From NCBI GenBank assembly GCA_963922205.1, contig CAWUHX010000371.1:194560-258559 (forward strand): a stretch of DNA of 64,000 nt. The letters run 5' to 3'. This DNA is from Romanomermis culicivorax (Eukaryota > Nematoda > Enoplea > Mermithida > Mermithidae). Shown here piece by piece: positions 4,059 to 50,703 of the stretch. How positions within the stretch are numbered: position 1 is the first letter of the stretch; every line of letters begins with the position of its first letter. Made by a program: the position numbers and the translations under genes. Below the pieces are notes generated by a model that did no database searches, had not been told where the DNA came from, and was given only the letters and a program-made list of their open reading frames with translations.

Positions 4059-4608
4059 ATATCCAACCTCCAGAATATATCATCTGTTGGGGAATGTGTT
4101 GCACAGTGCTACAAAATATTCAGGTAATGTTGAATAATTTACAGTGTTGTAGTTAACTTGGAATTTGGATAAGCAAAGACGCCATTTATTTTCATATATG
4201 TATTTGACAAGCTGAATAATTGTGGGATATTCCATTCATTGATCAGCTTTTGGTTTCAAGAAACAGCTGAACATGTTTTTCTTTTGATTTAGATGACATT
4301 GTTGAACGTAATTTATTTTCAACCAGGGTATAGTGATAGGTTTTGTTCGAGCCCAGGAGATGCTTTTATTCAATAAGATATTTTGAACACGAATTTTTTC
4401 AGATGCACTCACGTCACATATAATGGCAACAATAAACTTTGCTTTTTGAAACACGCCTATACGAAACAGAGAATTTTAGATCAACGCTATGATTCATACA
4501 ATGCATGGTGTGCCTATTATGATGGTGAAGATCGTTTTGCCCTACCAGCAGAAACAACTACTACTACTATTGAACCCAAAACGACAACTCAAGCTTCAGT
4601 TCTGAAAA
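4059..4608 (+). other. PAN domain 1 of gene I (exons A1 truncated + B1)
   Basis: A1 retains NISSVGECVAQCYK with cysteines 2 and 3 but has lost the CGWHGF start. B1 (4403-4608) carries cysteines 4-6, ending AWCAYYDGEDRF, and a linker with a run of five threonines. The donor after B1 is weak (GTGGGA). Confidence 0.7.
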
Positions 4609-7600
4609 GTGGGATACATCTTTTCCTTCCTCATTTTATAAATGAACCTGTGAATTTGGCGTATCTTGTCCATGACTTTGAATATAAATCTGTATAAAAT
4701 TTTCAGCTGGCAGAGAGTTCATACTGATAAACAATCCTTTCACTCCACTTGTTGGTGCTATAGAATACAATACAGAAAAGTACAATGCAATAAACACAAT
4801 GGCAACACAATTTGAAACTATACAATACAATAGAAGGAAGAGTGGCCACATAATACACCACATTCCTAATACAGGTTGTAGTCAGCCATACATGGATGTT
4901 AATCATCCTAAAACAATTTATACAAATTGTCCAATTTTTTCCTAGAGGAAATTTCTCCAAAACTGTTGGGACAAACTTTTTGAAACAAATAATAATCAAG
5001 AAGCTTTGTGAAGCTCGAGATACTGCCAAGGCAGTTTTTAAAATTCTGTTTGACAGTTTTTATGCCTGATGAAATGAAAATCACTACACAAAACCAGGGC
5101 AAAATTTAATTAGGATATGCATTGACTTGACTGAGTTTTCTCAAAACTTTTTGCTGGATTAGAATTCATTAATTCTTCATAATTGTACACCTGCTTTTTC
5201 ACAAAGATCAATATTGAAAAAGTTTTCCTGCTACAATGATTATTGAATTTTTTGGAATGAGTCACAAATAACATCAAATGACTGCTCAGAAAATGCGTAC
5301 ATACAATACAGAACAAAACTATAACACAATGCATGTAATGCAACACAATGCAATAGTAGATATTTGGGCCAATATACAGGGTACAAAAACCATACCTATA
5401 TACAAAACATAGGCCTCAAGGTATACTGCCATAACTGTGCGGGGCTATACTGGGGATGTAAAGAGTATGGTTGACAGTGTATGCTGGGTGATGGGGTGTA
5501 GAAAGTATAGTCGACAATCTGAATTCGAACAAGGTGTGGTGCAATACATGGGATGTAAGAAGTACACATGAAGCTTTAACTTGTTAAATTCCACATCAAT
5601 GAAGAAAGTAAATCAGACATTAAAATGAGACATTAAAATTGATGATGAAATGTTGTAAAAATCACGTCCCCGAAAATTTTATGGCATCTCAAGATCCTCG
5701 ACTCTTGGAATCTGATGATACTTTGCGTTTACTCGTTTTTCAACAGAATTTTTACATGAAATTTTGTTCGGGACACAATTTTTACCTATTCAGGACACAT
5801 TTATTGTTGATTCCCTATGCTGAAGCATTGTTTTCAGGACACGTTTTTTATTGTTATCGTGTCCCAAAATGGTGAAAAACATGTCCCGAAAACAGTGCTT
5901 AAGCACAGGGAATGAACAAAAAACCTGTTGCGTATAAGTAAAATCATATCCCAGATAAGTAAGAATTGTGTCCCGAAATATTTGTGTACAATTTTAGTGC
6001 AAAAAACCATTAGACAATAAGATCATGTGAGCCTTGAACCTCTTGGTTTTACTGGCATTTAAAATTTTTGGCTCAAGAATATGCACAATAAACCAACAAT
6101 CTAACAAATCATAAAACTACAGAAATGAAATATAAATTTATTGTAGACTATGATCAACAGCTGACCTACTAGACGCCATCATATCACCAGCCAGTATGGA
6201 TTTTTCAATAGTCTCATAACTTCATTTGTTTTGTAAATAAATTTTCAAATTTTTAAAAATATTCTACATTTTTGAGCTTAAAACGAAGACCCTCGAGATC
6301 CGTGATCTTTTAGAATCTAAAATTTTTATGGGTTTACTAATTTTTTACAAAATTTTTTCAAATATTATTGTTCAGAACACAATTTTTAATCATTCTGGAT
6401 ACATTTTTCATTGTTTCAGGACACGTTTTTGATGTGTTTTGTATAAAAATGTGTCCTGGTTAGGTTGAAATCATGCCCCGAAACATTGAAAAATGTGTAA
6501 GGAATACAAAGCTTAAACATAGGGAATCAATGAGAGATGTGTCCTGAATAAGTAAAAATCGTGTCCTAAAACAATAAGAACGTTTTCAAAAAAACTTTCA
6601 TGTGTACATTTTACTCAAAAATTCGGGCATATTATCTATGTCAAGCTTAGGCGTGCTTCTCTACATCAAGGTTCGGGCGTATCCCCTGCATATTATAGGA
6701 ATTTGGATCATATTATATTGTGGACTATACTCGACGAGCATACAGCAGTACCAGAAGCTCTTTATTTTCTTACTTCTTGAGCACCCTCAACTCAAACAAA
6801 AATTTAAATGCGTATTATGAAAGTCATGTCCCACACACAATTCGATATAATGAAATAAAATATGATGTGATATGATGCAATGTTCAAGATATTATACAAT
6901 ATCATACACTATAATACAATATCATAAACTACAATACAATGTCATACACTACGATACAATATCATACAATACAATACAATATCATATACTGCAATACAAT
7001 ATCATACACTACAATACAATATCATACACTACAAAACAATAAAAACATATCATACACTGCAATACAATACTAACATATCATACACTACAATACACTACAA
7101 AACAATAAAATACAATACAAATAGTAAAATACAATACAATATGATACAATACAATACACTACAATACAATACAACACTATACAATACAATACAATACACT
7201 ACAATATGATATGATAGGATACAATATGATATGATACAATACGACAGGATATGATATGATTTGATATGACACAATATGATATGATACAATATGATGCAAT
7301 ATGTTATGATATGATATCATATGATATGATATGATATGATATGATATGATATGATATGATATGATATGATATGATATGATATGATATGATATGATATGAT
7401 ATGATATGATATGATATGACACAATACAATATATGATATAATACAATGTTATTGAATGTGATAGGATGCAATGAGATGCGATGGGATGCGATGTGATGCA
7501 ATGCGATGTAATGTGATGTTATGCTAAGAGATGTGATGCAATGTGATTAGATGTGATGCAATGTGATGTAATGCAATGTGATGTGATGCAAAGTGATGTG

Positions 7601-10600
7601 ATGCAATGTGACATATTTAAAATCTAAATCATACAACACAATACCATTCGGTAAAGTACAAGCATAGCTCTCTAACAGAGGTGGCATGGATAGCTTTCTA
7701 GTGGGATGAATAACAATCTATTTTTTTAGATTTCATAATCAACAAACGTTGTGGTTGGCATGGTTTCGACTTATATAACCTGGATAACATATCATCTGTT
7801 AATGAATGTGCTGCACAATGCTACAAAAAATCCAGGTAATGTTGAATAATTCACACTGTTGAAGTGCACTTGGAAAATGCATAAGCAAAGACACGATTTA
7901 TTGTATTTGGAAGACATAGTATTTGACAAGTTGAATAAGTGTGACACATTCCATTCATTAAACATGTCATGGTTGTCAAATTTGTTGAACATATTTTTTA
8001 GGTTTAGATTACATGGTTGAAAATGTTTCTTATCCAACTGAAGTATAGTCCTAGGCTTTCTTTGAGCCCTGAAGATGCTTTTGTCCAACAAAATATTTTG
8101 TACTCTAATTTTTCAGCTGCACTCATGTCACATATAATGGCAAGAATAAGTATTGTTTTTTGCAACATGCTGATACGAAACAACAGATTCTAGACACACG
8201 CTATGATTCAAACAATGATGCTTGGTGTGTCTACTATAATGGTGAAGATCGTTTTGGGGGAGCAGCAGCACTAACCACTGTGAAACCCACAAAGACAACA
8301 ACGGAAAGTGCAGTTTCAAAACCAAGTAAGATAATTCTTTCATGTCTTATTAATTACATGAAATCTGGAGAAGATCAATTTCTTGTTTATATCACACAGT
8401 ATATGGAACTATTTTCGAATTTTCAGCTGGAGATGCAAGTCAATACAGAGCTGCAGAATATTCATATAAAAAATAATCTAATCCAATACAATACAACACT
8501 AAATGACACAATACAAAACGATAGAATACAGAAGAAGTTGGTCAGCACAATGTCATGCAATACAGTACACAGTACACTACAATGAAATGTGTGTAATACA
8601 ACAAAATACTATATGAAATAAAATGATAATAAAAAATACAGTACTTCCCTCCAAGGAATGCTCGCACAGTTTTGTCTTGAAATTTATATAAAAAATTGTT
8701 TTTCAGAGTTCACATTCGAGAAAGGTTGTGAATATGAAAATTACGACTTGTCCAACATCAAGAATATACCAAGTCATGCCATGTGTGCTAATCAATGCCA
8801 AATAAACAAGCGGTAAAATAGAAGGATTCACATTTTTGTATGTATGGTACTTACTGATTGTGCAATGGAGTCAAAGGTCTGCGTGAAATATTGCAGTATT
8901 TGCTCATGCATACATTGGTTTACTTCGGTCTGATTAATGCGTCTTCCAGCAATTGTATCTTTGGACTCCTTTGGATTGACATTTGAAAAAATTAGAGATA
9001 TATCTCATGATTGAAGAAATTATTTTATCATTTAAGCAATTTGAGTGATTCAATTGCATGCCATTTCAATGTTTAGACATTGTGATGCAGTTCTTCATGC
9101 TTTAAGATACAATGTCTAAGAGATTCTACCTTCTGCTCCATTGACTTATGATAAGTTGGAAATTAATAATACACATGAAAAAGATATATCTTGGTTAGTT
9201 TTACATGCTGAGTATCGTGACAGCATTCATTCCACATAGAAATCGGAAGTCGCATAGCTACAGCATTGCAAAGTTTAGAATTTTTAAATTTTTTCGTTTT
9301 TCGGTCTTTAATCGAAATATCACAGCTCAGCAAAGATGTAACTCTAAAGCCGAATGTTCATTGCATGCAGAAGACCACGCTCTATATGCAGGCATGAAAA
9401 ACATTCTGTAATCCTTTACTTTAAACTTTTCTTTCCATTTTTAAGTGTCAAAACGGAAATTAACTAAAAAAGTCCAATGGGGCCTTCTTTGGGCACCTTC
9501 CCATAGGATGCCGCAGAATTTTTTTCTTGATTTCTGTAGCCACTAATGTCTGTGTTAAATTTCAATCAAATTAATGTATCGTTTTGGTAGCTGTAGGTGT
9601 CTGTACATTCTGAAAGTTTATACAAAAATGCTTTTTAATTCCACTAAATATGCCATCAACAAGATGCAGGAAAAATTCAGAACGTTCAGATTAGACCAAT
9701 AAAAAGAAAAGATGTGAGTCGAATCACTGGTAAAATTTCAACGATCAATTTACAATTGTTGGGCAACAGGATGTCTCGATGCAACAAAAATTTCTCTTTT
9801 CATTATTTTGACCAGAAAAAAATCGAAGCTGCGATTTAAACGTTACAAAATTGATGTCGGCTATCTGACTCTGCCTATCTTATAAGCTGTACGAAAGTGC
9901 TTTATGGTTGAATGCATCCTTGTTCCTCACCATGCGATGTTAGAGTGACGAAAATAGAGCAAATGATAGCAGATTGCAGTGTTATTCCAACAGAGCAAAC
10001 AGTATCTGAATACCTGCCGCCATTTTCCTGTCAATGGATTTCAAACAATCACCCAATTTCCGAAATTTAATGAAAATTTTCGAAGTTTTCGATTTTTGAA
10101 GCGCTCTGTTTAGAAACCAATGAAAATTTATCAGGACTTCAAGCCGCATTTTTTCTCATGATGTGTTGAGTAAAGACGCATCCTGTATTACGAATACTTT
10201 ATTGACTGGACATTTATCCAGATTAAAAAACATATTTGAATGATAGTGGAGTGTATGCAGATGTCTACTGCTGCCAAAACAGTGTGCAATAATGAGATGT
10301 AACTTTCGCAGCTACTGTAGGAATGTATGAACTAAACAGTAAAAAAATAAAATTCCTTCGCCCTGGTTGAAGCTGTTTCGGAGGGCCCATAAACGGAATT
10401 TTTTTTTTGCTTTTCATTTTCGACAGTAAACTTTTTTGCGGAGTGTAAAATTTTCGTTTGTGAAAGAGTCAGTACATGAAACTATAGTCTGTTACTTATT
10501 TGATAATTCTATAGTACAGATAATAAACGTATCATACATATGTGTTAGACAAGGGCCACCTGGAAAATGCAATGACTCATGAGTGCCTGCTTCAGAACAG

Positions 10601-11416
10601 TGCAGCTCCCCAAATGGAATACAAATTTTTATAAAAATTTAACCAATACAGTAAGAATTCATTAGCTATAAAATGAGAAAATAAAATCCTGCGGCATCCT
10701 ATGGGAAGGTGCTCGGGAGTGCCCATAAACCAATTTTTTTCTCATTCTGACGACTCATTTTTGATACTTTAATATCTCTTGAAAGGTGAATGTGCAAAAA
10801 TTTACAGGAAATTTTACATCAAATGATAGCTTATCTCTTCTTGTGTACAACAAACTTTTATTTATCGGAGGAGATCAATCCGATCCTGAAATATTGCTTG
10901 ACTAGCATGACCACTGAAAAATGCGAAAAACGCAGTCTTCAGAATTTGGCATACTTTAGCAGTGTGAATTTTCGTTTTCGAGCAAAACGAATGATAACAT
11001 GAAAGTCAGTGCACAAAACTACCTAAAATATCTCATTTTGAGGTATGATTAATTTTCAACTTATCATAGGAAGGTAGAACTGCTCAGAAATCGTGTCTTA
11101 AAACACAGCTGCCTTACATTGAATGATGTAATCTCCTTTGCCCTTCAATTTTTAGTTTTCAGATGAACCCAGAAGCTGCTTTCATTTAACAAAATGTATA
11201 ATATGATAAATTTTCAGCTGCACTCACGCCACGTATTACTTTAATAATCAAGTGTGTTTTTTGCAACGCGCTAGTTCAAAAGCACTAATTCAAGAGACTC
11301 GCTCCAAGGCGATTAATTCGTGGTGCATTTTGTATAATGACGAAGATCGTTACGAACCAGCAGTGGGAATGGCCGTCAACGAATCAAGAAGTGAGGCAGC
11401 TGAAAGCGTACTGTAA
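4059..11416 (+). CDS. PAN-domain secreted protein gene I, 5' truncated by gypsy insertion
   Basis: Exons read from splice sites and paralogues: 4059-4123 (A1, first 41 bp missing), 4403-4608 (B1), 7730-7835 (A2), 8117-8325 (B2), 8707-8812 (C), 11218-11416 (D, stop TAA). Phases fit throughout: A and C exons end in phase 2, B exons in phase 1. The visible part encodes 296 residues, namely two and a half PAN/Apple-like domains with six cysteines each, joined by Thr-rich linkers. The upstream start and signal peptide lie beyond the inserted gypsy element. The B1 donor is GTGGGA instead of the usual GTAAGA, and the C-D intron holds a 2-kb inverted-repeat insertion. The gene may therefore be inactive, although A2 to D are intact. 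PAN domains bind proteins or sugars; no specific ligand can be named. Confidence 0.72.
4707..4945 (+). other. Candidate alternative terminal exon after B1 (E1)
   Basis: A TTTTCAG acceptor 98 bases past B1 is followed by a segment open for 78 codons in exactly the frame a phase-1 splice from B1 would give. It begins TGREFIL and ends at TAG 4943-4945. Similar GREFIL-type segments follow B4 and B5, with a more diverged one after B6. It could be intron conserved by duplication; transcript data would decide. Confidence 0.35.
5379..6830. mobile_element. Inverted-repeat element, copy of the 28287-32012 family
   Basis: The left arm starts GGGTACAAAA and runs through text such as ACTGTGCGGGGCTATAC that matches 28287 onward. 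The degraded right arm near 6620-6760 reads as the reverse complement of the same arm. Between them lie short hairpins, for example TTCCCTATGCTGAAGC at 5810 against GCTTAAGCACAGGGAA at 5897. No coding sequence was recognised. It lies in the B1-A2 intron of PAN gene I. The right end is approximate. Confidence 0.55.
6880..7200. repeat. Pentamer-based array with a 20-bp higher-order unit
   Basis: From 6901 to 7040 seven consecutive 20-bp units of the form ATCATACACTACAATACAAT follow each other in exact register, each made of four pentamers. Flanking sequence up to 7200 is a looser TACAA-type array. Confidence 0.8.
7200..7425. repeat. (ATATG)n microsatellite
   Basis: Pentanucleotide repeat, nearly pure from about 7311 to 7421, with variant units before it. 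It lies in the intron between PAN domains 1 and 2 of gene I. Confidence 0.9.
7446..7612. repeat. Degenerate GATGC/AATGT pentamer array
   Basis: An irregular alternation of GATGC, AATGT and GATGT pentamers follows directly on the ATATG tract. Confidence 0.75.
7730..8325 (+). other. PAN domain 2 of gene I (exons A2 + B2)
   Basis: A2 (7730-7835, 106 bp) encodes FIINKRCGWHGFDLYNL and cysteines 1-3. B2 (8117-8325) encodes CTHVTYNGKNK, cysteines 4-6 and a TTVKPTKTTTES-type linker. The 281-bp intron has clear TTTTTTTAG and TTTTTCAG acceptors. Confidence 0.82.
8427..8476 (+). other. Candidate alternative terminal exon after B2 (E2)
   Basis: A TTTTCAG acceptor 101 bases after B2 opens a short phase-1-compatible frame, TGDASQYRAAEYSYKK, ending in TAA. 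It is related to segments at 32377, 35302 and 49641, which also precede C-type exons. Confidence 0.3.
8707..11416 (+). other. PAN domain 3 of gene I (exons C + D, C-terminal)
   Basis: C (8707-8812, 106 bp) encodes FTFEKGCEYENYDLSNIKN. D (11218-11416) encodes CTHATYYFNNQVCFLQ, cysteines 4-6 and a short linker-free tail ending in TAA. The 2.4-kb intron is enlarged by an inverted-repeat insertion. Confidence 0.8.
9125..11079. mobile_element. Inverted-repeat (MITE/foldback-like) element in the C-D intron
   Basis: Ends match as TIRs: TTCTACCTTC...CTTATGATAAGTTG on the left against CAACTTATCATAGGAAGGTAGAA on the right. An inner pair, GCACCTTCCCATAGGATGCC near 9492 and its complement near 10693, is nearly perfect. 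Orthologous introns of genes II and III (309 and 448 bp) lack this segment, which supports insertion. No transposase was recognised inside. Confidence 0.65.
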
Positions 11417-11827
11417 AATGATGAGATAAATCTACTCCATCCTCATTAAACACATATCAACTTTGGTCAACTTCCATCCTTTGTCCCTGGTCTTAGAACA
11501 CGAGACCATCTGTAAGCTTTTTGCAGTCAGGGTGTTCATATGAGGATAGAGACAAAATTTTCAATTTTATTTTTGGAGGCGAGAGAATTCGTCAAGATTT
11601 TGCATTTTTCAATGTTTCCGAGCAGGTTTAATCCATATCTTCGATGGTGTCAGTATTCTGTAGATTACTGTATCGAAAAGTTAATTTTTCACCTTCAATG
11701 TATGGAAACATAGTATGCAAGTTTTGTCACTTTGTTCTTTGAATTAGCGGGTTTTCTACATAATTTTGATGACATCAACTTTCGGTAGATTAGTTTATCA
11801 ACTCGCATAAATTTTTCCCTTTCGATC
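11417..11827. repeat. Duplicated 3' flank of PAN genes, part 1
   Basis: Starting about 100 bases past the stop, the text AACTTTTTGCAGTCAGGGTG and the following 300 bases recur after genes II (36370) and III (50815). It contains degenerate AGATTACTGTA-type motifs. No gene is seen. Confidence 0.7.
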
Positions 11828-23875: not shown

Positions 23876-24430
23876 TTGTTATGCATAAAGGATTGGTTTT
23901 TTGTGCGTTTCTAATGAACTTGAATCATTCCAATGCATAAAAAAGGCTTCGTGAAGCACGGAGAACTCCACTCTGATTTGCTATTTGGGCGCCTTTGACG
24001 CATAATCGAGACCCCATTCCACAGGCTGGTCCATGATTCCAGTTTTTTTCGAGCTGTGCGCAGTATTTCTTATCAATTACCAACTCCGATAATGATAAGG
24101 TCATCATTATTTTTTATTTGAGTTCCACGGATGATTTTTGCTTTCGGTGATTATATTGTTTTTGAAATGCTGAGTTTACTTTTTCGTCTTGGATGTTATG
24201 GGCACGTTTTCATTGCTTTTCATTTTTTTAACCAAAGGATGCACGTCCCATCAGAAGTTAGCGATTGATTTCAAACATTAAATCGAGACTTTACCGGAGA
24301 AGAATCGGAGGAGCATTAGCAGTAATCCGGTCCATATGTGTTTTAATATGTTACACATCTTTATTTGGTAACATATAGGGCGCGGAGGTTACTTTACGCA
24401 ATGGATTAAACCGATCGATCGACTTTACTA
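23876..24430. other. Intergenic sequence, one doubtful minus-strand ORF
   Basis: A 60-codon minus-strand frame (24107-23925) has a balanced composition including CAQLEKNWNHGPACGMG, but no splice or family support. The rest shows nothing recognisable. Confidence 0.3.
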
Positions 24431-25135: not shown

Positions 25136-25339
25136 GGAGATTTTTTGTTTTTACTACCATATTAACAAATTATGCCAACGAATCTTACTGTAGTACGGTC
25201 AGTTGCTAGTTTAATCTCTTGTGCGAACAAAGCTCCGCCCTTCCCCTATACTATAACACGTGTATATGCTTAAATATTCTACCTGTTGAGGACAGGATTA
25301 CTACTAATGTTGTAAAACACTAATTTTTGGAGAAAGGAA

Positions 25340-26161: not shown

Positions 26162-26487
26162 ATGATATTTCTTTTACTATCTATTATATGCGGCTACATT
26201 ACTGGTAAGGCTCTACTGTGACAGTTGTCCAGCATTTCTCGCGAAATTTTCATTTAGCTGATCAGCTGACATGCCCATCTGACAAAGTACTCAATCCATG
26301 CGGTGATCTTTGTCAAGTGACATGCACTGACGTAAAGATAAATAATGTGCCCAAAGCATGCCCCACAATTTGCGATCCGCCCGCTTGTGTGTGTCCCGAC
26401 GGATTAGCCTTGATTCGTGGTCAATGCGTTGCTTACGGGCATTGTTGGCGTTTACCACCAGAAGATCCAGGTAATAAAAATGTCTAG
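26162..26487 (+). CDS. Secreted TIL-domain serine protease inhibitor (two exons)
   Basis: Exons 26162-26204 and 26258-26487 are joined across a 53-bp GT-AG intron and give 90 residues. Exon 1 encodes a hydrophobic signal peptide, MIFLLLSIICGYIT. Exon 2 encodes the mature chain from DQLTCPSDK onward. It contains exactly ten cysteines in the trypsin-inhibitor-like (TIL) order, including NPCGDLC, CPTICDPPACVC and GQCVAYGHC. Inhibition of trypsin- or elastase-like proteases is the usual role of this family; the target is not predictable. A GTAATA donor at 26471 could extend the gene further downstream instead of the TAG at 26485. It stands alone among transposon relics. Confidence 0.8.
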
Positions 26488-27713: not shown

Positions 27714-27716
27714 TAA

Positions 27717-32719: not shown

Positions 32720-33463
32720 AGTTTACAGTCGAGGATAATTGTTTATATCGCTATTACGACTTGTCCGACATCAGGAATATACCGGATGCTGCCATATGTG
32801 CAGATAAATGTGGAAAAACAATCAAGTAATGTAGGAGGATACAAAATGTAGTACAGTATGGTAGTTACTGATTGTCCAACAGTCAAAGGTCTGTGTAAAG
32901 TGTAGCTCTTTTGCACATATTGATGCATACATTTGCACCAACGGTTGTATCTTTAGACTCCTTCAAACTGACATTTGAAAGTGTTCATGCTCAACAGGTT
33001 ATGCCTCATTACTGAACGAATTGTGTTATTATTTAAGCAACTTCTCAGCAATATATCGACATGTCATTATCAATGAGTAGACATTCTGTTGCAGTTCTTT
33101 GTGCCTGAAAAAAATCTATTTTTCAGATGGTATTACCTTAGGATAGAGCACCAATTAGGTTAGAGCACCAATTACATTTTATGCACATAAATTTTTTGAT
33201 TTTTAATGTACCCAGAAGCTGGTTCTATTCAGTAAAATCTATACAATGATAAATTTTCAGCTGCACCCATGCCTCATATAATGCCAGAAACAAAATTTGT
33301 CTTTTGAAACACGCGAGTTCAAGAGAGCAAATTCAAGGAACTCGCCAAAAGTTCAATAATGTTTGGTGCATCACCTATAATGGTGAAGATCGTTTTAGTG
33401 CACCGGCAGCTCCAACTACTATTCAACCTATAACAACGACCACTGAAGACGTAGTTTCAAAAA
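32720..33463 (+). other. PAN domain 1 of gene II (exons C + hybrid D')
   Basis: C encodes FTVEDNCLYRYYDLSD. D' has the D-type start (CTHASYNARNK, HASSREQIQGTRQ) but continues into a B-type Thr-rich linker (TTIQPITTTTED) and a phase-1 donor instead of a stop. The exon is therefore a D/B chimera. Confidence 0.7.
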
Positions 33464-36270
33464 GTAATACATATCGATTCATTCACCATTGGACACATAA
33501 AGTTTTCGAACCTTTCCTTGAATGCAAAGATGGTATCATCTGTGCATTACCAGCTGTCAAAAGTTGCTACCAGCAAAGATCTTTTTTGAACAACTGTAAA
33601 TTCAAAATATTAAACACAAAATTCTGTACATAGCAAAAAATATTCAATCCAAAACAGGTTAACAAAATATGACATAATAGATGATAAGAGAATACAATAT
33701 GATGCAATGCAATACATCCCAAGGCAGTACAAAATAATACAATCTGAGTAACAAAATACAATACAATACACTACTATGCAGTACAAAACAATACAAGACA
33801 ATAAACTACAATAAAATAAAATTCAGTACAATGCAATGCAATATGATAATACATTGCAATACAATACAATGCAGTCCAATAGTGCAACACAATACAGTGC
33901 AATAAGGTACACTGCAATACAATGCAATGCGATACAATACACTGCAATACAATACTAAGTAATACAATACATGCAATAAAGTACAGTGCAATGCAAATCA
34001 ATACAATGTGATACAGTTCAATGCAATACAATGAAATACAATGCAATACAGTGCTATAGAATAAAGTGCAATGAGATACAACACAATACCATGCAGTGCA
34101 ATACAATACAGTACAATACATTGAAGTGCAATACAATACAGTGCAATTATAATAAATTACAATTCGATACAATACAACACAGCACAATTATAATAAATCA
34201 CAATTTAATACAAAACAGTGCAGCACAAAACAGTACACTGCAGTACAATGAAGTGCAATACAATAGGATACCAAATATTGAAATACAATGCAGACAATAC
34301 AATACAATAATATGTAATGACATAGAAAATATGGGATACAATACAAGAAGTTTTAATACAATATGATACAATAAAATACAGTACTATACAACACAATACA
34401 ACGCAATCGATACAATACAATGCAATTGGATGTAGTGCAGTACAATACACAATACAATACGAAGCAGTGCAATACAGTGCAATGCGATACACTTCAATAC
34501 AATACAGTGTAATTCAATACAGTGCAATACAACACAGTGCAATAGAAAACAACACATAACAATATGGTATGATGCCAACAGTACAAAGCAATGCAATACA
34601 ATAAAATAGCATGGTGTACAATACAATACACGAAAATACAATAGGATATAATACAATACAGTGCCATACAATACAATACAGTTTAGTAAACTTCAAATCT
34701 AAATGATACAATACAATAATATGCAAAACAACAAAATTTATGGCTTCCCTGTAAGATGAATGCCAGACAATTTTTTCCAGATTTTATAATCAACGAGCGT
34801 TGTGGTTGGCACGGTTTGGACTTACATAACCTCGAGAACATTTCGTCTGTTAGTGAATGTGCTGCACAATGCTACAAAAATTCCCGGTAATTTTGAGTAA
34901 TTCACACTTTTGTAGTGTACTTGTAAAGCAGATAAGCACAAAATTGATTTTATTTGAGAAGATGCCTTCACCCAATAAAATGATTTTACTCTAATGTTTC
35001 AGCTGCACTCATATCACATATAACAGCAAAAATAAGTTTTGCTTTTTGCAACACGCTGATACAAAACAACAGATTCTGGACACCCGTTATGATTCTTACA
35101 ACTATGCTTGGTGTGCCTACTACAATGGTAAAGATCGTTTTGGAGCAACAGCAGCACTTACCACTGTGAAACCTGTAAAAACAACCGAAAGTGCCGGTCC
35201 GAAACCAAGTAAGATAAATCACCTACGTCATCTTTAAGTAAATGAAGTCTGACGAAGATATTGATTTTCTTGAGTACATGAAACTATTTTCGAATTTTCA
35301 GCTATAGATGCAAATCAATACAAAGCTGTACAACATTCACGACACAAAAAATCCAATCCAGTACAATACAACACTATAGGGCACAATACAAAACGATAGA
35401 ATACAGTAGAAGTTTAACAGTGCTATGTATTGCAAAACAATGTGATACAACACAGTACACTGCAGTGAAATGAGCCTAATACAATCAAATACAATGGCAT
35501 GCCATACGATTGTATATGGAACAATACAACACGCAAAAAATTAAAATATAATGGGATTGGATATTGAACAAAACAATACTGTAAAATACAGTACTTCCCT
35601 CAGAGGAATGCTCCCACGGTTTTGTCTTGAAACATATTTAAGAAATTGTTTTTCAGTGTTCACGATGGAGAGAGGTTGTGAATTTGAAAATTACGACTTG
35701 TCCGACGTTAAGAATATACCGAGTCATACCATGTGTGCTGATCAATGCAAAAAAAACAAGCGGTAAAGTAGGAGAGTTCACATTGTTGTTGTTATTTATT
35801 GTCCAACTGGGTCAAAGGTCTGTGTTAGATATATCTGCGTTTTCAAATATTGAAGAAACTATGTTATCATTTCAGCAGCTTGAGCAGTTCATTTGCATGC
35901 CATTGTCAATGTTTAGGCATTGTGATGCATGCTTTGAAACATTGAATTTCATTGGATGATGTGATCTCCCTTCTAAAGTCCCTTCAACATTTCAAGCTAG
36001 TTAATTTAGGATTTCCAGATGAACCCAGAAGCTGTTTCCATTTTAGCAGAATGTATATCATAAATTTTCAGCTGCACCCACGCCACGTATTACTTCAATA
36101 ATCAAGTATGTTTTTTGCAACACGCTGGTTCAAAAGCGCTAATTCAAGAGACTCGCTCGAGGGCGATTAATTCGTGGTGCATTTTGTATAATGACGAAGA
36201 TCGTTACGAACCAGCAGTGGGATTGGCCATCACTGAACCAAAAAGTGAGGCAGCTAAAAACGTACTTTAG
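32720..36270 (+). CDS. PAN-domain secreted protein gene II, 5' end missing
   Basis: Exons 32720-32825 (C), 33261-33463 (D-like with B-type linker), 34781-34886 (A), 35003-35208 (B), 35657-35762 (C) and 36072-36270 (D, stop TAG). All phases agree and no internal stop is present; 308 residues and three six-cysteine PAN domains are visible. Domain 1 begins with a C-type exon, normally found only in the last domain, so the gene looks recombinant or truncated. No signal-peptide exon is found nearby; the relic at 20923 may have been its start. The role would be extracellular binding, as for the paralogues. Confidence 0.68.
33554..33633 (+). other. Candidate alternative terminal exon after D'
   Basis: The acceptor TTACCAG is followed by a phase-1 frame beginning VKSCYQQRSFLNN and ending at TAG 33631-33633. 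A recognisably similar segment follows the PAN pseudoexon at 62430. Confidence 0.25.
33660..34740. repeat. Degenerate TACAA pentamer array
   Basis: About 1 kb of imperfect 5-bp units (TACAA, TGCAA, TACAG, GATAC) fills the intron between PAN domains 1 and 2 of gene II. Substitutions are frequent, unlike the cleaner arrays in gene III, so it is probably older. Confidence 0.85.
34781..35208 (+). other. PAN domain 2 of gene II (exons A + B)
   Basis: A (106 bp) encodes NERCGWHGLDLHNLEN and cysteines 1-3. B encodes CTHITYNSKNKFCFLQ, cysteines 4-6 and a short linker, TTVKPVKTTES. The intron is only 116 bp against about 280 bp in the paralogues. Confidence 0.82.
35302..35399 (+). other. Candidate alternative terminal exon after B (gene II)
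   Basis: A TTTTCAG acceptor opens a phase-1 frame, TIDANQYKAVQHSRHKKSNP, that continues to TAG 35397-35399. It is related to E2 and E7. Confidence 0.3.
35657..36270 (+). other. PAN domain 3 of gene II (exons C + D, C-terminal)
   Basis: C encodes FTMERGCEFENYDLSDVKN. D (199 bp, the same length as in gene I) encodes CTHATYYFNNQVCFLQ, SWCILYNDEDRYEP and a short tail ending in TAG. Confidence 0.82.
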
Positions 36271-40997: not shown

Positions 40998-42195
40998 TTC
41001 TTTTCTTTTCTTTTCTTTTCTTTTCTTTTCTTTTCTTTTCTTTTCTTTTCTTTTCTTTTCTTTTCTTTTCTTTTCTTTTCTTTTCTTTTCTTTTCTTTTC
41101 TTTTCTTTTCTTTTCTTTTCTTTTCTTTTCTTTTCTTTTCTTTTCTTTTCTTTTCTTTTCTTTTCTTTTCTTTTCTTTTCTTTTCTTTTCTTTTCTTTTC
41201 TTTTCTTTTCTTTTCTTTTCTTTTCTTTTCTTTTCTTTTCTTTTCTTTTCTTTTCTTTTCTTTTCTTTTCTTTTCTTTTCTTTTCTTTTCTTTTCTTTTC
41301 TTTTCTTTTCTTTTCTTTTCTTTTCTTTTCTTTTCTTTTCTTTTCTTTTCTTTTCTTTTCTTTTCTTTTCTTTTCTTTTCTTTTCTTTTCTTTTCTTTTC
41401 TTTTCTTTTCTTTTCTTTTCTTTTCTTTTCTTTTCTTTTCTTTTCTTTTCTTTTCTTTTCTTTTCTTTTCTTTTCTTTTCTTTTCTTTTCTTTTCTTTTC
41501 TTTTCTTTTCTTTTCTTTTCTTTTCTTTTCTTTTCTTTTCTTTTCTTTTCTTTTCTTTTCTTTTCTTTTCTTTTCTTTTCTTTTCTTTTCTTTTCTTTTC
41601 TTTTCTTTTCTTTTCTTTTCTTTTCTTTTCTTTTCTTTTCTTTTCTTTTCTTTTCTTTTCTTTTCTTTTCTTTTCTTTTCTTTTCTTTTCTTTTCTTTTC
41701 TTTTCTTTTCTTTTCTTTTCTTTTCTTTTCTTTTCTTTTCTTTTCTTTTCTTTTCTTTTCTTTTCTTTTCTTTTCTTTTCTTTTCTTTTCTTTTCTTTTC
41801 TTTTCTTTTCTTTTCTTTTCTTTTCTTTTCTTTTCTTTTCTTTTCTTTTCTTTTCTTTTCTTTTCTTTTCTTTTCTTTTCTTTTCTTTTCTTTTCTTTTC
41901 TTTTCTTTTCTTTTCTTTTCTTTTCTTTTCTTTTCTTTTCTTTTCTTTTCTTTTCTTTTCTTTTCTTTTCTTTTCTTTTCTTTTCTTTTCTTTTCTTTTC
42001 TTTTCTTTTCTTTTCTTTTCTTTTCTTTTCTTTTCTTTTCTTTTCTTTTCTTTTCTTTTCTTTTCTTTTCTTTTCTTTTCTTTTCTTTTCTTTTCTTTTC
42101 TTTTCTTTTCTTTTCTTTTCTTTTCTTTTCTTTTCTTTTCTTTTCTTTTCTTTTCTTTTCTTTTGTTTTCTTTTCTTTTCTTTTCTTTTCTTTTC
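40998..42195. repeat. (CTTTT)n microsatellite, about 240 units
   Basis: 1198 bases of perfect TTTTC repeat with one substitution (C to G at 42165). It is strictly homopyrimidine on this strand, with potential for triplex DNA. The 416-418-codon frames on both strands exist only because this pentamer has no stop in any frame. The assembled length should be treated with caution. Confidence 0.97.
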
Positions 42196-42614: not shown

Positions 42615-42669
42615 ATGGAACTATTCGTAGTCATTCTATTGAGCCTCGTCGGTTCGTTTGTTTGTGAGG
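42615..42669 (+). other. Signal-peptide exon of PAN gene III
   Basis: ATG, 17 further codons of strongly hydrophobic sequence (MELFVVILLSLVG), then a GTAGGA donor leaving one base. That base plus the first two of exon A4 makes Asp, giving a smooth join into FIINERCGWH. A relic homologue lies at 20923-20950. Confidence 0.72.
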
Positions 42670-45600
42670 GTAGGAGTACAAGTTCTACTTTCAGATGATG
42701 AAGCAAGTAGTTTCTTGATAAGAAAGTAATTGATGTATAGATCACAGAAAGTAGACAGGTACAAAAAAATTTAAATTAAGAGTTACAATGAAAGCTTTTC
42801 TCGATTTAATATATTGCATGATTGATATCAATCGATAGATCTTGCCTAGATCAATTCAAACTTATGTTTTTAAAACTTTGCGACATCTTTTTGTCGAAGT
42901 TTTCTGATTTGAAGTTACCCGATCAACTTTTCTGATATGACCATGCAAGGTTTCAGTGATTATCAGGGGATACGATATTTTCTTCATAAATACCAAAACG
43001 GATATAAACTCATTGATGTCGACGAGCTCTATTCAAAAACATGCTTAAAAACTCTCTGCAGTCGATTTCAACCGAACAAAAGTGCAAAGACAATTATGTA
43101 GAGGTGTTTATCCTTGATAATGCTTGGAGACACCCCTGCAGACGTACGAGATTAAGCTACAAATAATTATCATATACTAGCATGTAGAGAATATAATTTT
43201 GTATTTGTGGACTTGTAACTTCCACGATGAATATCAGACAATCTTTTTTAGATTTCATAATCAACGAACGTTGTGGTTGGCATAATTTCGACTTATATAA
43301 CATCGAGAACATATCATCCGTTAATGAATGCACTGCAGAATGCAACAAAAAACTCCGGTAATGTTGAGTAATGCACACTGCTATAGTTCACTTCGGATGT
43401 GGATAAGCAAGGCATGATTTACTGTATCTAAAAGACATTGTATATGAGAAGCTGAATAATTGTGACACATTCTAATCATTCAACATGTCTTGGTTGTCAC
43501 AATCTGTCCAAAAACTTTTTTGGTTTAGATTATGTAGTTGGACATATTTCTTATCCAACCAGACCATGGTCCTAGGTTTCACCGGAGCCCTTAGGATGCT
43601 TCCATCCAACATAACATTTTATACTCAAATTTTTCAGCTGCACTCATGTCACATATAATGGCAAGAATAAATTTTGCTTTTTGCAACATGCTGATACAAA
43701 ACAACAGATTCTGGACACACGCTATGATTCATACAGCTACGCTTGGTGTGCCTACTATAGTGGTGAAGATCGTTTTATGGCAGCACCAGCACTAACCACT
43801 ACAAAACCCGAAATTGCGACTATTCCAGATTCAGTGTTGAAAAGTAATATAAATTTTTTCCTTCCTCTTTATGATGAATTAGGAGAATTTTGTATTTCTT
43901 GTCCATGACTTGGAATATGCAACTGTATCCAAATTTCCAGCTGGCAGAGAATTCATACTGACAAATGTTATTGAATACTTCTTGAAACAATACAAGGCAA
44001 CAATAACAATGTCTGGAACTATAAAATACAACAGAAGAAAGCCACGCAAAGGGATTCAACACAGTAAAACATAGTTCAATATGTTGCAATGAAATTCAGT
44101 GCAATACAATGTGCTGGAATTCAATGCAATGCCTTACTACCCAATACTTTACAGTACAATACAATATATAATCTCACATGATATTACTGAAGATCATACC
44201 TCAAGAGAGAATAAAAATGTAATGCAATACCACACAGTAAAACACGAAATAATACAACACAATGCAATACAATACTATACAATACAAAACAATACAATAC
44301 AATACAATACAATACAATACAAAACAATACAATACAATACAATACAATACAATACTATACAATACAATACAATACAATACAATACAATACAATACAATAC
44401 AATACAATACAATACAATACAATACAATACAATACAATACAATACAATACAATACAATACAATACAATACAATACAATACAATACAATACAATACAATAC
44501 AATACAATACAATACAATACAATACAATACAATACAATACAATACAATACAATACAATACAATACAATACAATACAATACAATACAATACAATACAATAC
44601 AATACAATACAATACAATACAATACAATACAATACAATACAATACAATACAATACAATACAATACAATACAATACAATACAATACAATACAATACAATAC
44701 AATACAATACAATACAATACAATACAATACAATACAATGCAATACAATACAATACAATACAATACAATACAATGCAATACAATACAATACAATACAATAC
44801 AAAATGATATGAAATGATATGATACGATGGGATATGATAAGATACGATATGATACGATATGATATGATACGATATGATATGATACGATATGAAATGATAC
44901 AATACAATACAATACAATATGATACGATATTATAGGATATGATACGATATGATACAATGCAATGCAATACAATACAATACGATACAGTACATCACAATAC
45001 AATACAAATCAATATAATACAATATGATAGGATACCATATGATAGGACGCAATATGATTTGATACAAGACAATACAATCGGATATGATATGATATCATAC
45101 AATACAATCTGATATATGATATGACACGATACAATACAATACAATACAGGACAGTACAATACAGTGCAATACAGTACAGAACAATACAGTTCAATGCAAA
45201 ACAATACAAAGCATTACAATACAAAACAACACAAAACAGTACAAAACAATACAAAACAATACACAACAATACACAACAATACACAACATTACAAAACAAT
45301 ACAATGCAATACAATAAAATGCAATCTACTTGAAATATATATGATACAAGAAAAGTATATGATACAAGACAATACAGTGCAATATACTTCGAATCTAAGG
45401 ACACAACACAATATTATAGAGTACAGTACAAAACTTAGTAATCTACAGGAGATTGCTTTGATGGCTTTCTTGTAAGATTAACATCAAACAATCTTTTTCA
45501 GATTTCATAATCAATGAACGTTGTGGTTGGCATGGTTTCGACTTACATAACCTGGAGAACATATCATCCGTTAATGAATGTGCAGCACAATGCTACAAAA

Positions 45601-48600
45601 AATTCCGGTAATGTTTAATATTCACACTGGTGTAGTGCACATGTGATTGATAAGCAAAGGCACTATTCACTGTATTTGAAAGACATTGTATTTGACTACC
45701 TGAACAGTTTTCACACATTCTTTTCATTGAGCATGTCTCAGTTGTCACAATCCACTGAACAAATATTTTTGGTCAAGATGACATTGTGAAAAATGTTGCT
45801 TATTCAACTGGAGTGTAGTCATAGGTTTTATATGAGCCCTGCAGATGCTTTTATGCAACAAAAAAATTAATACTCTCTATTTTCAGGTGCACTCATGTCA
45901 CCTACAATAGCAAGAATAAGTTTTGTTTTTTGCAACATGCTGATACAAAGCAACAGATTCTGGACACACGCTATGACTCATACAACTATGCTTGGTGTGT
46001 TTACTATATTGGTGAAGATCGTTTTGGGGCAGCAGCAGCACTTACCACTATGAAACCCGACACTGCAACCACTCTAGATTCAGTTTTGAAGAGTAAGATA
46101 AATCTTTATCTTCCTCACTATATGAATGAAGTATGGGTATTAGTGTTCCTTGTCAATGACTGGGAAAATGAAACAATATCTAAATGTTCAGTTGGCAGAG
46201 AATACATACTGACAAATGTTTCTTTTATAAGACTAGCAGATGTTATGGAATACTTTTTAGAATAGTACTAGGCAACAGAAACAATGTTTGAAACTATACA
46301 ATACAACAGAAGAAGGCAATGCAATGTAATACAGCAAAGTGAAACACTATCAATACAATACTAGGCTATTCAGCACAATGCAATGTGCTGGGATTTAATG
46401 CAATTCCCTACTACATAATACTTCATTGTACAATACTATGTACAGTCCCACAAAATATAATACAATACCTTACCCCAGAACAGAATACAATGTAATACAA
46501 TACAGTTTAAATACAATAATATACAATACAATGCAATACAACACAATACAAAACAACGCAATAGAATACAATCCAATACAATACAATACAAAACAATACA
46601 ATACAATACAATACAAAACAATACAATACAATACAATAGAATGCAATACAATACAATACAATACAATACAATACAATACAATACAATACAATACAAAACA
46701 ATACAATACAATACAATGCAATACAATACAATACAATACAATGCAGTACAATACAATACAATACAATACAATACAATACAATACAATACAATACAATACA
46801 ATACAATACAGTACAGTACAGTACAGTACAATACAATACAATACAATACAATACAATACAATACAATACAATACAATACAATACAATACAATACAATACA
46901 ATACAATACAATACCATAAAATACAATACAATACAATACAATACAATACAATACAATACAATACAATACAATACAATACAATACAATACAATACAATACA
47001 ATACAATACAATACAATACAATACAATACAATACAATACAATACAATACAATACAATACAATACAATACAATACAATACAATACAATACAATACAATACA
47101 ATACAATACAATACAATACAATACAATACAATGCAATACAATACAATACAATACAATACAATACATTGCAATACAATACAGTCCAATGCAATACAGTGCA
47201 ATACACTGTAGTGCAACACAAAATATTGCAATACATTACCATGATGTACAATACAGTGGAAGACAATAGAGAAAAACACAATACAGTCAAATACAGTCTG
47301 CTACAATGCAATACAGTGCAATATGCTTGAAATCTGAATCATACAACACAATAGCATGCAATAGAATACAAAAGATAGCTCTCTGTAAGAGATTGCTTGG
47401 GTGTCTCCCTTGTAAGATGAATGTCAGGAAATCTTTTTAGATTTCATAATTGAAGAGCGTTGTGGTTGGCGTGGTTTTGACTTATCCAGTCTCAGGAACA
47501 TATCATCAGCTAAAGAGTGTGCAATGCAATGCTACAAATTATTCAGGTATTCTCGATAAATTTACACTTCTGTAGTGGACTTGGAATGTGGATAAACAAA
47601 GACACCATTTATTGTTTTTGAAAGACATTGTATTTGACAAGCTGAATAATTGTGACACATTCTATTCACTAAACATATTTTGGTTTTCACAATCTGTATT
47701 GCAAATTTTTTTGGTTTGGATGACATAGTTGAACTTGTTCTTTACCAAAGCCATAGTATTGTCTTATTTGTACCCAAATTTGTACCCTTGTACCCAAATT
47801 TTATTTGCACCCAAAAGGTGGTCTCATTCAACAAAATATTTTATCTACTAATTTTTCAGCTGCACTCACGTCTCATATAATGGAAACAATACATCATGCT
47901 TTTTAAAACACGCTGGTTCAAAACAACAGATTCTGGACTCACGCTACAATTCATACAACAATACTTGGTGTGTCTACTATAATGGTGATGATCGTTTCGA
48001 GGCAGCAGCACTAACAACTAGAAAACCGGAAACTTCAACAACACTTGATTCGGTCTTGAAAAGTAAGATAAATATTTTACATCCTCATTATATAAAATAA
48101 CTTCGGGATTTCCATGCTGCTTGTCCAGGACTTGAAATATGAAACCACATCGGAATTTCCAGGTAGCAGAGATATCATACCAACAAAAGTTTCTTTGATC
48201 ATACTGGTAGATGCAATGGAATACTATTTAGAACAGTACAATGCAGCAAAAACGCAATTCGAAACTATACGACACAACAGAAGAAGGCCATGCAATGTAA
48301 TTCAACAGGATATACAATCTAATGCAATTCAGTGGGATGCAAAGTGCTGGAATTCAATGCAATGCCTTACTCCTGATTCTTCATGATACAACACTATATA
48401 TAATCTTGCAAGATATTATATAATACCACAGAACAAAATACAATGTATTATAATACAATACAATTCAATACAATACAACATAAAGTAATACAATACAATA
48501 CAATACAAAACAATGCAATACAATACAGTGCAAAGCAATGCAATATTATACAATAAAATACAAAACATAACAATAGAATACAAAACATAACAATAGAATA

Positions 48601-50703
48601 CAATACAATACAGTACAAAGCAATGCAATACTATACAATAAAATACAAAACATAACAATAGAATACAAGACAATACAATAAAATACAATATGACACAATA
48701 CAGTACTACAATATGATGCAATACAATACAAAACAATGCAGTACAGTGTTACACAATACAATACAGGTCAATGTACTTTAAATGTAAATGATACAACACA
48801 ATAGCATGCAATTCAATACTATACAGTGCAATATTTTCGAAATCTGAATGCTACAATTCAATACCATGTAAAACAATACAAAGCATGGCTCTCTACAAGA
48901 GATTGCTCAGTTGGCTCTCTTATAAAATGAATCAGACAATCTTTTTTAGATTTCATTATCAACAAGGCCTGTGGTTGGCATGGTCTCGACCTATCTGGCC
49001 TAAAGAACATAGCATCTGCTAATGAATGTGCTGCTCAATGCTACAAAATATTCAGGTAATGTTGAATAATCACACTGCAGTAGTGGACTTGGAATGTGGA
49101 TTAGCAAAGACACCATTTAATGTGTTTGGAAGGGATTGTATTCGACCAGCTGAATAATTGTATCATATTCCTTTCATCCAACATGAGTTGGTGGCCACAA
49201 TCTGTCTTACAAGTTTTTTAGATTCACAGGACATAGTTTAATCTTTTTGTTATCTAACCAGAGTACAGTCGTACTTTTTGTTCGAGATGAGAAGATGTTC
49301 TCCAACAAAAAACTTCGTCCACTAATTTTTCAGGTGTACTCACTTCTCATATAATGGCAACAAAACGTCATGCTTTTTTAAACACGCTGATACAAAACAG
49401 CAGATTCTGGACACACGCTATGATTCATACAACAATGCTTGGTGTGGCTACTATAATGGTGGAGATCGCTTTGGGGCTGCTGCATCACTAAGCACTACGA
49501 AAGCCATATTAACAACAACTGCAAGCGCAGTTGCAAAACCAAGTAAGACAAATCTTTCACATCCTTATTAACTACAAGGACTCAAGAAGATCAATAGCTT
49601 GTCTATCACTCAGTATATACAATTATTTCCGAATTTTGAGCTAGAAATGCAAATCAATGCAGAACTGTACAATATTCGTATCAAAAAAAAACTAATCCAA
49701 TACAATACAACACTACATGACCCAATACAAAATGATAAAATAGAGTAGAAGCGGGACAATACGATGTTTTGCAATACGAAACATTACAACACAGTACACT
49801 ACAATGAAATGTGTGTAATACAATAAAATACAATGGCTTACTATACGATTCTATATGGAACAATACAATATATGATGCAAGGCAATAAGATACAATAGAA
49901 TAGGATAATACATGGGACAATACCATACATAACTGTACTTCCCTCAAAGGAATGCTCGCACAGTTCTGTCTTGAAATAGATATAAGAATTTTTTTCAGAG
50001 TTCACGATCCAGAAAGGTTGTGAATATGCCTTATACGACTTGACGCAGGTTTGGAATATTGGAAATCATAACATGTGTGCTATTCAATGCCAAATAAACA
50101 AGCGGTAAAGTAGAAGGATTCATATTGTTTTATGTAAGGTATTTACTGATTGTCCAAAAAGCAATATTCACACATACCTTTTACAAAAGGTATGTGTAAA
50201 TATTGCAGCATTTGCACGTGTCAAAATGCATACATTGGTTTACCTCAGTCTGATCACTGCAACTTCCAACAATTGTGTCTTTTGAATACTTTGAATTGAC
50301 ATTTAAAAAAGAGGGATCCTATCTCATGATCAAGAAATTATGATATCATTTCAGCAAATTGAGTAGTTTATTTCGATGCCATCATTCATGGTTAAATGTT
50401 GTGATACAGTTCTTTATGCTTTTAAAACACATGCCTTCCTTCTCATAATATTATCTCCTTGTTACATCTATATTTGATGGACATCAATTTTCTTTAAATG
50501 TACAATGAAGCTGCTTTTATTTAGCAAAATGTATTATATGATAAATTTCCAGCTGCACCCACGCCTCGTATAACTTTGGTAATCAAATATGTGCTCTGAA
50601 ACAAGCCAGTTCAGAAGCGCAAATTCAAGAGTCTCGCTGGCCGTTGGTTAATTCGTGGTGCATTTTGTATAATGGCGGGGATCGTTACGCACCAGCAGCT
50701 TGA
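42615..50703 (+). CDS. PAN-domain secreted protein gene III, complete (five PAN domains)
   Basis: Eleven exons: 42615-42669, 43252-43357, 43638-43843, 45502-45607, 45887-46092, 47441-47546, 47860-48062, 48950-49055, 49334-49542, 49999-50104 and 50553-50703 (stop TGA). Summed length is 1560 nt, in frame, 519 residues. Exon 1 starts at the first ATG after the conserved flank and encodes a signal peptide, MELFVVILLSLVGSFVCE; its phase-1 donor fits the next exon. Four A+B domains with Thr-rich linkers are followed by one C+D domain. Every domain keeps the six PAN/Apple cysteines. Linkers are likely O-glycosylated (inference). No membrane segment or anchor is seen, so the protein should be secreted. 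Ligand unknown. Confidence 0.78.
43252..43843 (+). other. PAN domain 1 of gene III (exons A4 + B4)
   Basis: A4 encodes NERCGWHNFDLYNIEN with cysteines 1-3 (ECTAECNKK). B4 encodes CTHVTYNGKNKFCFLQ, AWCAYYSGEDRF and the linker ALTTTKPEIATIPDS. Confidence 0.83.
43941..44074 (+). other. Candidate alternative terminal exon after B4 (E4)
   Basis: A TTTCCAG acceptor 97 bases past B4 is followed by a phase-1 frame TGREFILTNVIEYFLKQYKA that continues basic (NRRKPRK) to TAG 44072-44074. It ends before the TACAA array. Confidence 0.35.
44259..44800. repeat. (TACAA)n microsatellite in PAN gene III
   Basis: Perfect from about 44358 to 44738 (roughly 76 units), with sparse variants at both edges. It lies in the intron between PAN domains 1 and 2. 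The ORFs of 180-240 codons across it are artefacts of a stop-free pentamer. Confidence 0.96.
44801..45320. repeat. Mixed pentamer arrays (GATAT, TACGA, TACAA)
   Basis: The TACAA tract grades into a GATAT/GATAC array (44805-44940) and then a degenerate TACAA/CACAA array. All keep the 5-bp period. Confidence 0.85.
45502..46092 (+). other. PAN domain 2 of gene III (exons A5 + B5)
   Basis: A5 encodes NERCGWHGFDLHNLEN, close to the family consensus. B5 encodes CTHVTYNSKNKFCFLQ and AWCVYYIGEDRFGAAAAL, then a TTMKPDTATTLDS linker. Confidence 0.83.
46192..46265 (+). other. Candidate alternative terminal exon after B5 (E5)
   Basis: A TGTTCAG acceptor is followed by phase-1 GREYILTNVSFIRLADVMEY and a few more codons to TAG 46263-46265. 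The 99-base gap from B5 has no stop either, so intron retention would give the same end. Confidence 0.35.
46519..47170. repeat. (TACAA)n microsatellite, second tract
   Basis: About 130 units with occasional substitutions, perfect from about 46919 to 47132. It lies in the intron between PAN domains 2 and 3 of gene III. The overlapping 219-291-codon frames are artefacts. Confidence 0.96.
47441..48062 (+). other. PAN domain 3 of gene III (exons A6 + B6)
   Basis: A6 encodes IEERCGWRGFDLSSLRN. B6 encodes CTHVSYNGNNTSCFLKHAG, TWCVYYNGDDRFEAAA and the linker TTRKPETSTTLDS. More diverged than domains 1 and 2. Confidence 0.82.
48163..48386 (+). other. Candidate alternative terminal exon after B6 (E6)
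   Basis: The longest of the type after gene III domains: TTTCCAG acceptor, phase-1 frame open for 73 codons. It contains VDAMEYYLEQYNAAKTQFET and ends at TGA 48384-48386. Confidence 0.35.
48420..48780. repeat. Degenerate TACAA pentamer array
   Basis: Imperfect 5-bp units with internal duplication of a roughly 20-bp AAAACATAACAATAGAATAC block. It sits in the intron between PAN domains 3 and 4 of gene III. Confidence 0.85.
48950..49542 (+). other. PAN domain 4 of gene III (exons A7 + B7)
   Basis: A7 encodes NKACGWHGLDLSGLKN. B7 encodes CTHFSYNGNKTSCFFKH, AWCGYYNGGDRFGAAA and a TTTASA linker. Confidence 0.82.
49641..49720 (+). other. Candidate alternative terminal exon after B7 (E7)
   Basis: The acceptor here is TTTTGAG rather than TTTTCAG. 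The frame NANQCRTVQYSYQKKTNP continues to TGA 49718-49720 and is related to E2 and E3. Confidence 0.28.
49999..50703 (+). other. PAN domain 5 of gene III (exons C + D, C-terminal)
   Basis: C encodes FTIQKGCEYALYDLTQVWN. D (151 bp, shorter than the 199-bp D exons of genes I and II) encodes CTHASYNFGNQICALKQ and SWCILYNGGDRYAPAA, then stops. The Glu/Ala tail of the paralogues is missing. Confidence 0.82.

Follow-up and report, generated by a model that had tools for sequence, protein, structure and literature searches.

A probable family of tandemly duplicated genes for putatively secreted PAN-domain chains, built from a two-exon unit, in the nematode Romanomermis culicivorax

According to an excerpt of PMC6314250, the kringle IV type 2 (KIV-2) domain of LPA is encoded by a 160-bp and a 182-bp exon and present in 1 to >40 copies, with a microsatellite in an amplicon of the intra-kringle intron. 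For apple domains, sections of PMC10499198 give the disulfides as C1-C6, C2-C5 and C3-C4 and describe kalliklectin, a catfish lectin, as a chain of eight apple domains without protease activity, and part of PMC7191736 describes the leech antiplatelet protein LAPP as a collagen-binding PAN protein that is secreted. Here we analysed PAN-domain genes in the final 64 kb of a contig of R. culicivorax (assembly GCA_963922205.1, 359 Mb in 595 contigs; contig CAWUHX010000371.1, 258,559 bp, hereafter C371), namely positions 194,560 to 258,559 of its forward strand, a stretch of 64,000 nucleotides that we call the window. An earlier reading made by a model from the letters alone (the sequence-only reading) had proposed a tandem family of such genes there, and a literature search turned up no paper describing a tandem two-exon multi-PAN architecture. 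The rest of the contig was screened for PAN exons with a profile of both half-domains and with blastn. Bare coordinates refer to the window, those prefixed C371 to the whole contig, and L numbers to separate pieces; the exons, the exon relic, the retrotransposon part and the (AATAC)n arrays located in the window all lie on the plus strand.

Our results indicate that these are very likely tandemly duplicated genes encoding chains of between two and five PAN domains, probably secreted, in which common descent and constraint keep the first exon of each domain at 106 bp. The exon plan, the PAN family, the open frames, the related flanks and the mosaic units are read directly in the DNA. The family comprises gene 0 with two PAN domains, gene 1 with five (one broken), gene 2 with at least three and gene 3 with five, and, with copy numbers of 2, 5, at least 3 and 5 across these genes on a single contig, the two-exon unit offers a clean case of a module family undergoing change. 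The tandem paralogues with two exons per domain, as first proposed, hold in their exons, phases and splice sites, and gene 0 is added upstream. The domain numbers given then (at least three, three and five) were right in that they differ and in the five of gene 3; they become five for gene 1 and at least three for gene 2.

Gene 3 is open from its ATG at 42615 to the TGA at 50701-50703 and encodes 519 amino acids with a hydrophobic start. Its signal-peptide-like exon (42615..42669, 55 bp), which exits in phase 1, is followed by the 106-bp exons A5 (43252..43357), A6 (45502..45607), A7 (47441..47546), A8 (48950..49055) and C8 (49999..50104), which alternate with B5 (43638..43843, 206 bp), B6 (45887..46092, 206 bp), B7 (47860..48062, 203 bp), B8 (49334..49542, 209 bp) and the terminal exon D8 (50553..50703), where the stop comes early. 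Gene 0, upstream on the contig, is also open from ATG to stop (204 amino acids, hydrophobic start), with the first-half exons A0 (C371:44424) and C0 (C371:56697), both of 106 bp, and a B0 of 197 bp. Related 55-bp signal-peptide-like exons with a phase-1 exit open genes 0 and 3, and exons akin to that of gene 3 lie at C371:39851, 61210 and 64651, the last two being additional to those of genes 0 and 3; a second phase-1 GT stands 6 bp earlier in the gene 3 exon, and the 55-bp end was picked because it is common to three related exons. Gene 2 consists of C3 (32720..32825, 106 bp), D3 (33261..33463, 203 bp, internal, with linker and donor), A4 (34781..34886, 106 bp), B4 (35003..35208, 206 bp), C4 (35657..35762, 106 bp) and the terminal exon D4 (36072..36270, stop included).

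Gene 1 begins upstream of the window with two further complete units (C371:186141 and C371:187594), whose first exons are 106 bp and whose second exons are 161 bp, with short linkers without Thr-rich stretches. Within the window it continues with the right half of exon A1 (4059..4123, 65 bp; the 45-bp left half is at L009:4747-4791), B1 (4403..4608, 206 bp, second PAN half and Thr-rich linker, GTGGGA donor), A2 (7730..7835, 106 bp), B2 (8117..8325, 209 bp), C2 (8707..8812, 106 bp) and the terminal exon D2 (11218..11416, stop included). Exon A1 is split by a Ty3-type long terminal repeat (LTR) retrotransposon, the 3' part of which occupies 1..4058 of the window (3' LTR at 3175-4058). Position 4059, at which gene 1 was previously taken to start, is where the LTR ends and the right half of A1 begins. 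The whole element spans C371:189351-198617 (9,267 bp), the 4-bp ATAT is repeated at both its sides, and the exon halves (45 bp + 65 bp) minus this repeat give 106. Its Pfam domains run RVT_1, RT_RNaseH, Integrase_H2C2 and rve, an order (reverse transcriptase, RNase H, integrase) that we take to mark Ty3 rather than copia. The two LTRs are identical over 884/884 positions, which suggests that the insertion is young. Three more LTR-like copies were seen on the opposite strand in L022, L024 and L025 (within C371:24560-64559), 94-95% identical to the A1 LTR over 624-655 bases and 83-85% over a second piece.

All ten complete first-half (A/C) exons in the window (A2, A4, A5, A6, A7, A8, C2, C3, C4 and C8) measure exactly 106 bp, with a phase-1 entry and a phase-2 exit, which bears out the earlier claim of a fixed length with identical phases, then counted on nine exons. 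The same length and phases are found in four further first-half exons on the contig outside the window. Each first-half exon carries cysteines 1-3, and the exon after it carries cysteines 4-6 and then either ends in a stop or runs through a linker to a phase-1 donor. Within the window, second-half exons measure 203-209 bp when internal, and the three terminal ones 151-199 bp including the stop. Phase-1 introns lie on both sides of the internal units of the window, the signal-peptide exon of gene 3 exits in phase 1 and the TIL-like exon described below is phase 1 to 1, so that the modules are of class 1-1. Across the models of all four genes, all acceptors are AG (30/30) and all donors GT (28/28), and the base before the acceptor AG of the family exons is C in 24/30 and T in 6/30, preceded by a run of T. 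An acceptor of the form TTTTCAG is typical of nematodes.

The PAN_1 profile matched every spliced model above its curated cut-off of 21.4 bits, in a profile search of the kind that the sequence-only reading had suggested: two stretches in gene 1 (E value 4.7e-17, 62 bits, with only the last two domains entered), three in gene 2 (E 1.7e-24, 85.9 bits), five in gene 3 (E 1.8e-38, 130.7 bits), and gene 0 at 63.7 bits. Six cysteines in apple order are invariant in 10/10 aligned units, and four more units were read by eye. Against solved structures, a profile of ten units matched a kelch-domain protein, microneme protein 4 (MIC4), microneme antigen L2 and plasma kallikrein, and weakly factor XI (E 0.015) and plasminogen (E 0.29). 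The ratio of nonsynonymous to synonymous divergence (dN/dS) has a median of 0.36 over the 51/66 unit pairs with 0<dS<1.5, in a set of 12 units that left out gene 0 and the unit containing the interrupted A1, and most pairs are well under 1; therefore the frames are coding now, or were until recently. Elsewhere in the genome PAN_1 matched 26 places, counted as scored hits, and 14 control genomes gave no match. C371 carries none of these hits, as expected because the domain is split between exons there. Eleven partly overlapping stretches around other hits (L001-L008 and L029-L031, covering 14/26 hits) gave no match to the first half and one weak match to the second half (E 0.03), and L001 and L002 each hold an entire PAN domain inside a single open frame.

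Comparison of the copies points to duplication of whole genes and to exchange. Related 3' flanks are seen in 6/6 pairs of the four genes (66-84% over the aligned pieces), and whole genes were therefore copied. The terminal domains C2, C4 and C8 form one clade (support 100/99) with C3 beside it (100/100). For the other units two trees were made, one of bodies (A exon, intra-domain intron and B core) and one of linkers with 3' flanks, and their p values in the approximately unbiased test (p-AU) are post hoc. The body tree groups {A2,A4,A5,A6} (99/96) and rejects {A2,A4,A8} (p-AU 0.0016), whereas the linker and 3' flank tree sets the penultimate units of the four genes {A0,A2,A4,A8} (90/90) against {A5,A6,A7} (95/97) and rejects {A7,A8} (p-AU 6.5e-5) and {A2,A4,A5,A6} (2.4e-9). 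Because the two trees conflict, PAN bodies appear to have moved between positions. The switch in identity between units falls where the PAN core (B core) ends. These data support domain shuffling between units, with the internal units as mosaics, and both gene conversion and unequal exchange would fit. The shuffling proposed in the sequence-only reading thus gains support from the conflicting trees and the switch point, within the post hoc limit just given; in a domain tree of the kind it suggested, the terminal C/D units cluster by position and the internal bodies do not. A tree sorted cleanly by gene, or by position, was rejected accordingly. Each PAN domain is encoded by a phase-symmetric (1-1) two-exon module, mostly joined to the next by Thr-rich linkers; in the mechanism we propose, whole genes underwent tandem duplication, PAN bodies were swapped between positions, and common descent together with constraint on a compact half-domain keeps the 106 bp.

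The fixed exon length could also be taken as selected in itself, beyond the demands of the protein, for instance for nucleosome spacing or exon definition. First-half exons are 106 bp in 15/15 copies contig-wide (the split one counted as 45+65-4), although introns of the same genes range from 116 to 11,505 bp; chance is not at issue, but since the copies are kin, these equal lengths do not count as independent observations. However, 13 aligned first-half exons have no gapped column, and the second-half core (the first 135 bases) is nearly as constant, with 45 or 46 residues and 6/138 gapped columns, while intra-domain introns show 423/516 gapped columns when those longer than 500 bp are trimmed. 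Both half-domains are rigid, and the contrast between fixed and variable exons arises from the linkers and tails on the second exon. The earlier statement that B/D exons and introns vary is correct for introns, linkers and tails and fails for the second-half core. Selection on the length itself is therefore highly improbable; coding constraint and shared ancestry suffice, 106 bp is best read as a single inherited exon for a compact half-domain that needs no special rule, and we dropped the length as a rule of its own. It is also somewhat unlikely that the array is mostly a graveyard, with one or two genes still functional and the other copies decaying. Gene 1 was hit by the LTR insertion, a degenerate B exon at 62432..62638 lacks an AG acceptor, contains stops and is followed by AATAC-bearing sequence, and no PAN exon was found between the signal-peptide-like exons at C371:61210 and 64651 and the unit at C371:186141; in addition, there is no start exon like that of gene 3 near gene 2, and the terminal domain of gene 3 is relaxed. 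Yet genes 3 and 0 are open from ATG to stop, all counted splice sites are kept and dN/dS is well below 1 in most pairs. Some of these points, with others, count against our own reading of a duplicated PAN-chain family as well: gene 1 is interrupted in exon A1; blastn found no exon like the gene 3 signal peptide in genes 1 and 2; the terminal domain of gene 3 looks relaxed (dN/dS 1.22 against C4D4 and 0.79 against C2D2); in the linker tree the outermost row, Am1, has an odd composition and sits on a long branch; and the tested clades were picked after the distances had been viewed, although the opposite pulls are strong.

Two further alternatives concern the introns between domains and the starts of genes 1 and 2. 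Arrays of (AATAC)n stand in the inter-domain introns B1-A2 (6894..7242), D3-A4 (33755..34680, degenerate), B5-A6 (44251..45325), B6-A7 (46484..47205) and B7-A8 (48437..48765), and they might drive gain and loss of domains through misaligned recombination between these introns, like a coding variable number tandem repeat (VNTR). Of the 1475 sense-strand AATAC 8-mers on the contig, 1425 fall within the 11 inter-domain introns, and the five arrays of canonical unit AATAC among those listed for the contig by Tandem Repeats Finder (periods of at most 10, scores of at least 60) are all in such introns. The density is 5.70 per kb on the sense strand against 0.10 per kb on the reverse strand, and all arrays run in the same direction and hence form direct repeats, which between phase-1 modules would be a good substrate for frame-safe domain gain or loss. 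At least four 8-mers occur in 10/11 inter-domain introns, whereas two each are present in 2/15 intra-domain introns and two in 1/2 signal-peptide introns, never more; the 2-kb bin with the relic at 62432 holds 19, and the 11 stretches at other PAN loci (55,869 bases, partly overlapping) hold 14 on both strands. This placement is, however, explained by an array seed in an ancestral inter-domain intron that was copied with each unit and grew by slippage, which is the plain reading; the inter-domain intron Bm2-Am1 lacks any exact 8-mer, and the only switch point found, the end of the PAN core, lies outside the arrays. We regard recombination driven by the arrays as quite unlikely. The arrays as proven recombination sites were dropped, as no breakpoint was found in any of them and the switch point is elsewhere. 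Slightly less probable still is a coding VNTR in a non-vertebrate animal, in which AATAC recombination would vary the length of the PAN chain between individuals, some chains carrying a TIL inhibitor head.

Such a head is suggested by a candidate header for gene 2, a signal-peptide-like exon (26162..26204, 43 bp, exiting in phase 1) and a TIL-like exon (26258..26470, 213 bp, phase 1 to 1), whose joining to the PAN exons is inferred. The TIL-like exon shares 71% protein identity with an exon upstream of gene 1 (C371:180630-180842) and is classed by that similarity, the Pfam TIL score (E 5.7e-6, 26.8 bits against a cut-off of 24.5) belonging to the gene 1 copy. That genes 1 and 2 encode fusions of signal peptide, TIL and PAN domains, protease inhibitors with a PAN tail whose first exons are these upstream pairs, seems to us an evenly balanced proposition. 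The pairs lie 5.3 kb upstream of the first known PAN exon of gene 1 and 6.2 kb upstream of that of gene 2, both exit in a phase-1 donor compatible with the PAN exons, and the two header copies differ by dN 0.18 and dS 0.51; comparison of the intervening stretches (blastn, tblastx) gave a single match, 67 bp long and close to the TIL end, and none that was open and coding. Against this, the introns from header to PAN exon would exceed 5 kb, the pair may instead be a small separate TIL gene whose last exon is unconserved or reads into the intron, and a hydropathy scan found a weak rival start for gene 2 at 31801 with a phase-1 GT at 31943. The regions of genes 1 and 2 also share sequence upstream of the TIL exons (24043-25623 and C371:176288-177845, 67-68% identity), and therefore the duplicated block extends past the PAN exons.

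As to the products, the hydropathy scan gave hydrophobic starts in genes 3 and 0, and in both the frame ends shortly after the last PAN domain. Because of the hydrophobic starts, the PAN-chain proteins are likely secreted, which agrees with that part of the proposal of secreted binding proteins; binding stands as the best guess. By analogy with other PAN proteins, they would most likely bind protein or sugar ligands outside the cell in a multivalent manner. Transcription, like secretion and binding, is predicted from the gene models.

Other features of the window were noted as well. Near-perfect (AAAAG)n arrays lie at 40998-42195 (1.2 kb), ending ~420 bp upstream of the start codon of gene 3, and at C371:172407-173070 (0.66 kb). 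The region 54101-60200 is richer in G+C and has a strong skew of C over G, a 127-bp tandem repeat (54229-55167) and several open frames; a Pfam scan of five of these gave no match above cut-off. Segments of the region resemble other sites of the contig at 66-69%, and it is possibly an old mobile element. On the minus strand, 21340-22408 holds broken transposase-like frames with a weak DDE_3 match below cut-off (E 0.038), presumably mariner/Tc1-like. A dispersed minisatellite with a unit like GAGCGATTCCCAAGT occurs at 22709-22975, 62902-62944 and 63842-63997 and at several places on the contig, on both strands. Another nine open frames in the window had no Pfam match above cut-off, gene 3 had no NCBIfam match, and Rfam at its gathering threshold found nothing in the window or in L009-L023 (15/20 pieces of the contig beyond the window).

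The mosaic structure of the units and the location of the AATAC arrays merit follow-up, the fixed exon length alone being ordinary; if domain number varies between individuals, a link between an intronic repeat and protein length becomes directly testable. In this respect the closest likeness is to LPA KIV-2 as presented in the excerpt, where a two-exon domain is likewise repeated with intra- and inter-domain introns. The domain there is a kringle and here PAN, the microsatellite there is intra-kringle whereas the arrays here are inter-domain, and here a single assembly is at hand. Vertebrate apple domains are also encoded by two exons each. Plasma kallikrein (E 6.9e-5 with the family profile) and factor XI likewise carry tandem six-cysteine PAN/apple domains, and they differ in having a protease domain, absent here, while Thr-rich linkers are found here. 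Kalliklectin is closer in being an apple-domain chain without a protease; it is a vertebrate protein and a lectin, whereas sugar binding is only a proposal for the present family. MIC4 and microneme antigen L2 are among the best PDB matches (E 9.9e-7 and 4.9e-5), and we take them to be apicomplexan proteins with an adhesin role; in contrast to the setting of such microneme PAN proteins, the genome here is large, intron-rich and stocked with LTR elements. LAPP has a single PAN domain. It shares with the proteins described here membership of the PAN family and secretion, which is predicted here, and differs from them in that the PAN domains of this family are joined in chains.

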